DNA of 64,000 nt from NCBI GenBank assembly GCA_024710705.1, contig JANJUF010000113.1, forward strand, positions 1-64,000, in the 5' to 3' direction. The translations under genes and the position numbers were made by a program. Positions 5,088 to 45,400 of this stretch are shown piece by piece. Numbering within the stretch: position 1 is the stretch's first letter; the number at the start of each line of letters is the position of its first letter. The stretch is from Gemmatimonadaceae bacterium (GTDB lineage Bacteria; Gemmatimonadota; Gemmatimonadetes; Gemmatimonadales; Gemmatimonadaceae). The notes beneath the pieces were generated by a model. That model did no database searches, was not told the origin of the DNA, and saw nothing but the letters and a program-made list of their open reading frames with translations.

Positions 5088-5155
5088 GTGATGCGGGATG
5101 GGGGGTCTGCGCGAATCCTAGCCCTTTTGACGGCGATGCGGAACAACGTCAACTG

Positions 5156-5232
5156 CGATGCGGGGTGCCCTGCGGAACGGGGAGCGGGACCCGGATGCGG
5201 GACGATGCGGGATGCGGGGGAATGGTGCGGGG
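5156..5232 (+). repeat. Left arm of 77-bp inverted repeat
   Basis: Begins CGATGCGGGGTGCCCTGCGG and is the reverse complement of 5713-5789 except at one base. Its 3' half is a set of GATGCGGGA variants. It lies 68 bp upstream of the start codon of the hydrolase at 4065-5087. Confidence 0.85.
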
Positions 5233-5268
5233 GGCGGGGTGCGGGGGGCGGGGGGCGGGGGGCGGGGC
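5228..5268 (+). other. G-tract block with G-quadruplex potential
   Basis: The plus strand carries at least five runs of four to six G separated by one to three bases (pattern GGGGGGCGGGGTGCGGGG and onward), directly after the left repeat arm and abutting the stop codon of the leftward gene. This meets the usual sequence criterion for a G-quadruplex; folding is not shown here. The right arm has no matching block, so this part of the element is asymmetric. Confidence 0.6.
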
Positions 5269-5688
5269 TCAACGGCCGAAACTGCGACGGTCCTTCGCGG
5301 CCGACGCTCGGGCGGTGCGGATCATCGTGAGCAGCAGTCTTCGGATCGAGGTGAGCCGGGCGAGGCGCTCCTCGAGCTCCGCGGGGCGCACGGCCTCGTA
5401 CCACACCATGCTTTCACGTGCGGAGCCGAGCGCGTACTCGAAGAATCGGCGGCGATCGGCCGTGCCGCCGCGCGAAAAGCCCTCAGCGATATTCGCTGCA
5501 ATCGACCCGGCGGCGCGCACAAGCTGCCCCGCCGACTCCACGAGCAACGCATCCCCTCGCGCGGCCGCCGCATCCTCCTGCGCCAGCCGCATCGCCTCCA
5601 CCGCGAGCCGATACACCGCGAGGCGATGTACCGGATCCAGTTCGTTCGGATCCAAAGGAGGCACGGGAAAGGACCACGTCATGGCCAC
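5269..5688 (-). CDS. Four-helix-bundle protein (23S rRNA IVS / Avd-like family)
   Basis: A 139-residue basic helical protein. The segments HRLAVYRLAVEAMRLAQE, ESAGQLVRAAGSIAANIAEG and RRRFFEYALGSARESMVW match the S23/IVS family of pentameric four-helix bundles, best known from intervening sequences in 23S rRNA and as the Avd accessory of diversity-generating retroelements. The SIAANIAEGF block is the family hallmark. No reverse transcriptase or template/variable repeat is present, so a retroelement role is not supported. The ATG at 5688 is used; an ATG two codons later is equally possible. The gene is wholly enclosed by the 77-bp inverted repeats. Nucleic-acid binding is known for relatives; the job of solitary copies is unknown. 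Confidence 0.85.
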   Translation of the reverse strand: MAMTWSFPVPPLDPNELDPVHRLAVYRLAVEAMRLAQEDAAAARGDALLVESAGQLVRAAGSIAANIAEGFSRGGTADRRRFFEYALGSARESMVWYEAVRPAELEERLARLTSIRRLLLTMIRTARASAAKDRRSFGR

Positions 5689-5712
5689 AGCCTAGCCCCG
5701 ACACTCCCCGCA

Positions 5713-5789
5713 CCCCGCACCATTCCCCCGCATCCGGCATCGTCCCGCATCCGGGTCCCGCTCCCCGTTCCGCAGGGCACCCCGCATCG
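5713..5789 (-). repeat. Right arm of 77-bp inverted repeat
   Basis: Reverse complement of 5156-5232 with one mismatch. It lies between the start codon of the enclosed four-helix-bundle gene and aspA, ending 48 bp before the aspA start codon, so it sits in the aspA promoter region. Confidence 0.85.
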
Positions 5790-5837
5790 AAGTGCAGTGC
5801 AGCCCGCACCGCAGTTCACGGAGATAGATTCGAGCGT

Positions 5838-44897: not shown

Positions 44898-44926
44898 TTT
44901 GCCACAGAGGCACAGGGACACGGAGG
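44898..44926 (+). repeat. Left arm of 29-bp inverted repeat
   Basis: Starts TTTGCCACAGAGGCACAGGG and is the reverse complement of 45317-45345 except at one position. Its right end is 3 bp before the GxxExxY ATG, so it must lie in the 5' leader of the mRNA. Confidence 0.85.
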
Positions 44927-44928
44927 GC

Positions 44929-45303
44929 ATGGTGGAGCGGGACTCCTTGAGCGCGCGCGTGATCGGCGCCGCCATCGAAGTGCATCGCGTGCTCGGACCT
45001 GGTCTTCTGGAGTCCGTCTACTCCAAGTGCCTGCGGATCGAGCTGGACGCGCTAGGCCTGCGGACTCAACGCGAAGTGTCCGTGCCGATCCGTTACCGCG
45101 GGACACGCGTGGACGCTGCGTATCGCATCGACTTGCTCATCGAGAAGACACTGATCGTCGAAGTAAAGAGCACCGCCCGTGACGACCCCGTCTTCCGCGC
45201 GCAGCTCCTGACCTATCTCAAGCTCACCGGGCTACGAACCGGACTCCTCCTCAACTTCGGCCGCCCCACCCTCCGGGAAGGAATCATCCGCATGGTGCGC
45301 TAG
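44929..45303 (+). CDS. GxxExxY protein, PD-(D/E)XK nuclease-like fold
   Basis: A 124-residue protein. The family signature is GLLESVY at residues 25-31, inside AIEVHRVLGPGLLESVYSKCL. A PD-(D/E)XK-like metal site follows: Asp68 in YRIDLLIEKTLIVEVKS with Glu78-x-Lys80. The Gln/Tyr helix QLLTYLKLTGLRTGLLLNFG closes the fold. Nuclease activity has not been established for the family as far as I know. I use the ATG at 44929; translation from upstream in-frame codons would read through the repeat arm (LPQRHRDTE), probably non-genic. The gene is wholly inside an inverted-repeat element. Confidence 0.85.
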   Translation: MVERDSLSARVIGAAIEVHRVLGPGLLESVYSKCLRIELDALGLRTQREVSVPIRYRGTRVDAAYRIDLLIEKTLIVEVKSTARDDPVFRAQLLTYLKLTGLRTGLLLNFGRPTLREGIIRMVR

Positions 45304-45316
45304 CACCGCACCAATA

Positions 45317-45345
45317 CCTCTGTGTCCCTGTGCCTCTGTGGCAAA
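45317..45345 (-). repeat. Right arm of 29-bp inverted repeat
   Basis: Plus-strand sequence CCTCTGTGTCCCTGTGCCTC followed by TGTGGCAAA; complementary to 44898-44926 with one mismatch. It starts 13 bp after the stop codon of the GxxExxY gene. Confidence 0.85.
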
Positions 45346-45400
45346 AGGAAGAGCCGGCCCCACGAGGAGGCCGGCTCAGTACCACGGGCCGCACCGGCGA

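Follow-up and report, generated by a model that had tools for sequence, protein, structure and literature searches.

What relation holds between a small gene and the inverted repeats that enclose it almost without spare sequence? This question is raised by a 448-bp unit at positions 44898-45345 of the window, the stretch of 64,000 nt of Gemmatimonadaceae DNA analysed here, in which one 124-codon GxxExxY gene lies within 37-nt inverted arms. No statement about the function of GxxExxY was found within the open-licence PMC papers. Three of them mention the family: a pipeline called a GxxExxY domain where another program saw cas4 (PMC8934634), an algal virus genome is listed with a GxxExxY protein (PMC12085832), and in Arctic microalgae PF13366 is described as expanded (PMC9756366). 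In the present study the unit, its protein, the arms of homologous genes and the dispersed copies of the arms were therefore compared across genomes.

Organization of the unit

The left arm (44898..44934, plus strand, 37 nt) has TTTGCC at its outer edge, followed by three CACAGAG-like units, CACAGAG (44903-44909), CACAGGG (44911-44917) and CACGGAG (44919-44925). The gene is located on the plus strand at 44929..45303 and encodes 124 aa from ATG, with a GTG at 44932 as other possible start. The right arm (45309..45345, minus strand, core 45317-45345) is an inverted copy of the left arm; the two are 89% complementary over 37 nt at a spacing of 374 nt. As the original prediction had it, the unit is gene plus arms with hardly any spare sequence: the left-arm core stops 2-3 nt upstream of the ATG, the full 37-nt alignment reaching a few nt into the gene, and the stop ends at 45303, leaving a gap of 13 nt to the right-arm core. 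The GGAGG preceding the start codon is itself part of the left-arm end. The unit is intergenic, both neighbours being protein-coding genes with no rRNA gene at the site, and its right arm abuts a terminator-like hairpin (45346..45380, minus strand), read from the sequence, that belongs to the neighbouring minus-strand genes; this neighbour recurs in other species. A single copy of the GxxExxY gene was found in the 3.0-Mb assembly (completeness 87.6%).

The GxxExxY protein

By profile search the gene product was assigned to TIGR04256 (E 1.9e-39, 134.6 bits against a curated cut-off of 35) and to PF13366 (PDDEXK_3; E 1.4e-38, 132.3 bits against a curated cut-off of 22). The key residues in the window protein are E28, D68, E78-x-K80 and Q92-xxx-Y96; among 88 boxed proteins, E28, D68, K80 and Q92 are present in all 88, E78 in 87 and Y96 in 86, so that the metal-site residues proposed earlier (Asp68, Glu78, Lys80) are all present and conserved among boxed homologues. 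The structure model of the window protein (mean pLDDT 92.8) has its best solved match in 4ic1, SSO0001 (Z 9.4, 100 aligned residues, 4.4 Å), a Cas4 protein, and the same entry was reached by Foldseek (E 7.2e-3) and by sequence profile (E 0.28). The structure matches also include lambda exonuclease and archaeal Holliday-junction resolvases, and since most rows have Z below 8, only the common arrangement is safe for those rows. The fold and the D...ExK...QxxxY residues are common to GxxExxY and the Cas4/lambda-exonuclease PD-(D/E)XK group; unlike that group, GxxExxY has only 124 aa and is boxed by repeats. Judged from the model, GxxExxY is a small PD-(D/E)XK protein with an intact Cas4/lambda-exonuclease-type QxxxY site, and hence a predicted nuclease.

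Inverted arms at GxxExxY genes of many phyla

Inverted arms, defined by an upstream/downstream inverted match score of at least 16, were found at 74/102 GxxExxY loci from many phyla vs 4/335 neighbouring genes, and 28 of the 102 loci were without arms at this threshold. The 102 loci remained from 109 after 5 with less than 200 nt on one side and 2 near-duplicates had been left out. Since 80 loci are the best 80 among 543 sequences confirmed to match the window protein, the sample leans to its subfamily, of which 58/73 loci are armed, and 16/29 among the relatives. In the order to which G079 (Thiobacillus denitrificans) belongs, taken as a separate sample, 20 loci were fetched, of which 18 scored at least 16; one of the two misses was truncated. 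Most of these homologues are thus boxed, so that the outcome named as refuting the original prediction, a majority of homologues without flanking repeats, did not occur. In a motif test, three-unit arrays were present on both sides at 39/104 loci and on one side at 29/104, and on both sides at 0/195 shifted positions. Chance arms were rejected on these control counts, together with the 20-nt arm core, which, with up to 3 mismatches allowed, is found only twice in the window, as against a mean of 0.01 in shuffled sequence.

Three, or sometimes four, 7-nt units make up each arm; they follow roughly the pattern C-R-C-N-R-A-K and are spaced at a pitch of 8-10 nt. The units observed include CACAGAG, CGCAGAG, CGCAAAG, CACGGAG, CACGAAG, CACGAAT and CGCAGAT, and the arm sequence varies from locus to locus. 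A Sphingomonas GxxExxY gene in the fabD-fabG interval (L372 2501-2929) scores as unboxed; its left array abuts the start, and a right arm was not found.

A phage or plasmid gene was rejected as a general account, given near-absence from phage records (0/50,697), plasmids (7/72,556) and viral contigs (one confirmed locus), the viral scan, with its two peptide patterns, being a weak test of viral occurrence. The single viral locus and a Bacteroides plasmid copy are also boxed.

A sister design was seen at genes of the S23 four-helix-bundle family (TIGR02436), which was searched as a control. After 6 truncated loci out of 30 had been left out, 20/24 testable S23 loci of relatives were boxed by arrays of other units (L131-L160), namely inverted tandem units such as AGGTGTC, GAGTCAG and GATGTGA. 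The window itself contains an S23 gene (5311-5538, minus strand) in a boxed unit at 5152-5793, with 97-nt inverted arms that are 93% complementary and built of GATGCGGG-like units; its protein is unrelated to GxxExxY. The 23S rRNA intervening sequences have complementary borders and take the place of hairpin tetraloops, and S23 is the ORF that some of them carry (PMC4990558).

Arm type and protein lineage

The two arms of a locus agree with each other. The pitch was the same in both arms at 37/39 loci (0.34 for swapped arms), and the variable unit positions of left and right arm agreed at 0.869 vs 0.680 when permuted within pitch classes, a value reached by 0/2000 permutations. The linkers between the units agreed at 0.515 vs a permuted 0.439 (p 0.064). 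Units and pitch thus match well and linkers barely above chance, so that pairing as such is kept much less than the units, and perfect base pairing is not what is conserved.

Where one genome has several paralogues, every one of them is flanked by an arm pair of its own. In a swap test with 15 paralogues from 4 genomes (G125, G136 and G204 left out), the mean score was 23.5 for own arms vs 10.9 for arms swapped within the genome, the lowest own-arm score being 8. A tree of the 88 boxed proteins (120 columns; only stop-free proteins with an array found alongside), in which many forks are unresolved, required 17 changes for unit letter two, 10 for letter five, 1 for the last letter and 18 for pitch, each below the lowest of 300 shuffles (20, 11, 6 and 23, respectively). 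Across phyla, the nearest protein of another phylum has the same unit type in 48/88 cases; 500 shuffles of the labels within phyla gave 34.3 (sd 6.6, maximum 52), and the effect is modest.

The same correspondence extends to copies away from the genes in G113, a genome with five GxxExxY genes. Among its 26 dispersed places listed (of 59 matches), 25 belong to two arm types, CGCAAAG-like with pitch 8 and CACGGAG-like with pitch 9, which are the types boxing two of the G113 genes; three of the 26 are those two genes' own arms. On these sequence comparisons, the arm type follows the protein lineage, also among paralogues of one genome. The original prediction that the protein may act on its own arms gains support from both the paralogue swap and the tree.

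Dispersed palindromes without a gene

In the genome of the window, a search with nt 1-29 of the left arm, allowing up to 3 mismatches, gave 20 copies, and none for the reversed pattern. These are the 2 arms of the gene unit and 18 others, which make up 12 non-coding palindromes and 1 lone arm. The copies are thus mostly inverted pairs matching the repeats at the gene, and the 12 non-coding palindromes have an arm-start spacing of 110-113 nt in 7 cases and of 32-94 nt in 5.

A larger set was available from G015, a genome of the same genus with 132 matches to a related arm pattern (reversed control: 7). Of 38 palindromes read, 8 fall in the 52-92 bp class (68-70 bp), 18 have 183-193 bp, 11 have other lengths, and the remaining one, of 430 bp, contains the GxxExxY gene. 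Many of the longer ones have a partial inverse arm about 20 nt inside each end, so that either end would be able to fold its own hairpin, as in REPINs. The 38 elements showed no target-site duplication, no direct repeat rising above the level of shuffled partners. Directly outside the arms TTG and CAA are conserved and, farther out, AACTG occurs on the left in 21 of the 38 and CAGTT on the right in 17 (wrong orientation 1 and 0, respectively).

The G015 palindromes also show nesting of repeat families: AACTGC/GCAGTT stand outside the arms (L161-L200), and GGATGCGGG and AACTGCAACGG arrays together with strong inner hairpins are found within loops (L164, L175, L176 and others in L161-L200). The GGATGCGGG motifs inside some of these palindromes are as in the window S23 arms. 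In G152 conservation extends beyond the arms (seen in 13 entries, of which some overlap as readings of a single element), and the arms are therefore not always the element ends. No element movement was seen in these comparisons and no junction of nucleotide precision was found. Four spellings of the arm gave no match in open-licence PMC papers, and no account of these repeats was found there.

Co-occurrence of gene and arms across genomes

GxxExxY was found in 23 of 150 genomes of the G079 order, with the family cut-off passed in 21. The general arm pattern was present in 32 of the 150, that is in 19/23 genomes with the gene and 13/127 without it (reversed pattern: 2 matches in all), and the narrower CACAGAG pattern in 10/23 and 13/127, respectively; Fisher values for such counts treat as independent genomes that are non-independent. 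In the genus of the window, the arm pattern was present in 4/7 genomes with the gene and 0/10 without; two of the other three gene-bearing genomes have arms of another kind, and in G003 none were detected. Among 30 gene-bearing genomes, chosen by eye for CACAGAG-like arms, the exact CACAGAG-like pattern was found in 29, with up to 127 matches (reversed: 1 in all); Thiobacillus denitrificans, a cultured host, has 109 exact matches.

Arm-rich genomes in which the gene was not detected exist as well, such as G152 (33 matches to the general pattern) and G129 (28 to the narrower CACAGAG pattern). Another boxed gene was sought in GxxExxY-less arm-rich genomes, and none was found in 40 stretches of G174, G129, G152 and G104. 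In the longest loop (L281 815-1208, 346 nt, CACAGAG arms) neither an ORF of 55 aa nor a match to GxxExxY was found; it contains a different palindromic repeat.

One chromosomal site in the genus

The element is located at the same chromosomal place in G000, G002, G011 and G015, the gene being present in 7/17 genomes of the genus. Its copies there have 55-61% protein identity, with changes at the third codon position dominating, and each has a species-specific arm version in which left and right are matched. Having kept this place in four species, the gene copy itself is hardly mobile. No element was found at the orthologous site in G003, G005, G006, G009 and G010, and the orthologous intergenic site of G016 (L209) carries a lone arm with four CACAGAG units. 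By coordinates only, the gene of G003, G005 and G016 lies near the opposite end of lpdA. Two units of the G011 left arm remain intact, and a gene for an IS110-family transposase (PF01548, E 7e-25; L102 2052-3002) is located at this arm.

Predicted RNA fold of the unit

When the whole unit is folded as RNA in silico, the arms are predicted to pair with each other, placing the ribosome site within the stem (z -6.48). With GGAGG in the left arm, occlusion of the ribosome site is possible, and this part of the original prediction stands as a possibility for the window copy, where leader pairing may add autoregulation. As the purpose of the arms in general it fares worse: many copies are non-coding, the linkers match at 0.515 vs 0.439, and at the 30 of 35 loci tried where the start codon could be placed, it lies within 15 nt of the arm in 16 and more than 15 nt beyond it in 14. 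A leader hairpin leaves the dispersal unexplained, since many palindromes per genome have similar arms around a short non-coding loop.

Discussion

We favour, as rather probable, a REPIN/RAYT-like explanation, in which recognition of its own arm type lets the PD-(D/E)XK protein process arm DNA and thereby keep or spread the palindromes. The 448-bp unit would belong to a family of dispersed palindromic elements as the member that carries the gene. GxxExxY would recognise the arm type boxing its own gene, cut or trim such arms, probably in a folded-out or single-stranded state, and in this way spread or maintain the non-coding palindromes with the same arms. Recognition, that is binding, is suggested by the co-variation of arm and protein, while cleavage and mobility are proposed by analogy with RAYT/REPIN. 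RAYTs are proposed to keep or spread REPINs (PMC3116915, PMC8266576). The likeness lies in dispersed palindromes that each consist of two repeat units in inverted orientation, in a separate gene of a distinctive kind beside which matching repeats stand, and in several such genes per genome, each with its own repeat type. In contrast, the RAYT partner is an HUH (Y1) tyrosine transposase and the partner here a PF13366 protein of PD-(D/E)XK fold, and REPINs are GTAG-tagged hairpins whereas the arms here are tandem 7-nt units. There is a real chance that the system is a class of its own rather than a REPIN/RAYT variant.

Other known elements resemble the unit in part. The 23S rRNA intervening sequences have about 430-450 nt, complementary ends and one small ORF (PMC4990558), but the GxxExxY unit is intergenic and encodes a protein unrelated to S23. 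Inverted ends and the occurrence of gene-bearing and gene-less copies are also features of MITEs and insertion sequences, but no target-site duplication was found here and the unit holds no known transposase.

Three further explanations were weighed against the favoured one. An element acting at the RNA level, whose arms pair in transcripts so that RNase III or GxxExxY processes the stem and regulates the gene or its neighbours, the dispersed copies being RNA-processing sites, would account for the predicted fold, for the short distance from arm to start at 16/30 placed loci and for the boxed design shared with S23 genes, the ORF of some intervening sequences (PMC4990558); we regard it as improbable, as linkers barely above chance beside matching units and pitch suit tandem recognition sites better than a stem, and the window element abuts an opposite-strand terminator. 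Also quite improbable is that GxxExxY is a passenger, captured between the arms of palindromes that spread by replication slippage, a transposase or the S23 system. Arm-rich genomes without the detected gene, S23 genes boxed by other arrays and repeats nested in loops speak for such a history, but an arm type that follows the protein even between paralogues of one genome, and the association of gene and arms across the 150 genomes, speak against it. Least probable in our judgement is adoption by the host, with protein and many arms serving DNA repair, recombination or genome organisation and no transposition today: the constant site with matched arms in four species and the near-absence from phages, viral contigs and plasmids agree with it, but the gene is present in only 7/17 genomes of the genus and the arms are specific to each paralogue.

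A bolder form of the favoured protein-and-arm explanation is suggested by the nesting and the outer AACTG/CAGTT pairs. The elements could be mobile palindromes that enter hairpin tips and are spread by PD-(D/E)XK proteins via a code of 7-nt unit and pitch, with the S23-type nesting among them and the 23S intervening sequences as a ribosomal branch; this we consider doubtful.

GxxExxY and its arms look like a new kind of partnership between enzyme and repeat, the activity of GxxExxY being predicted. If GxxExxY is the partner of the arms, a widespread family gains a substrate, and common dispersed repeats (CCACAGAG..., CGCAAAG..., CACGAAT...) gain an owner. Dozens of natural pairs show co-variation of unit and pitch with protein lineage, so that the recognition code would be readable from sequence. 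HUH transposases would then not be the sole kind of enzyme tied to dispersed bacterial palindromes.
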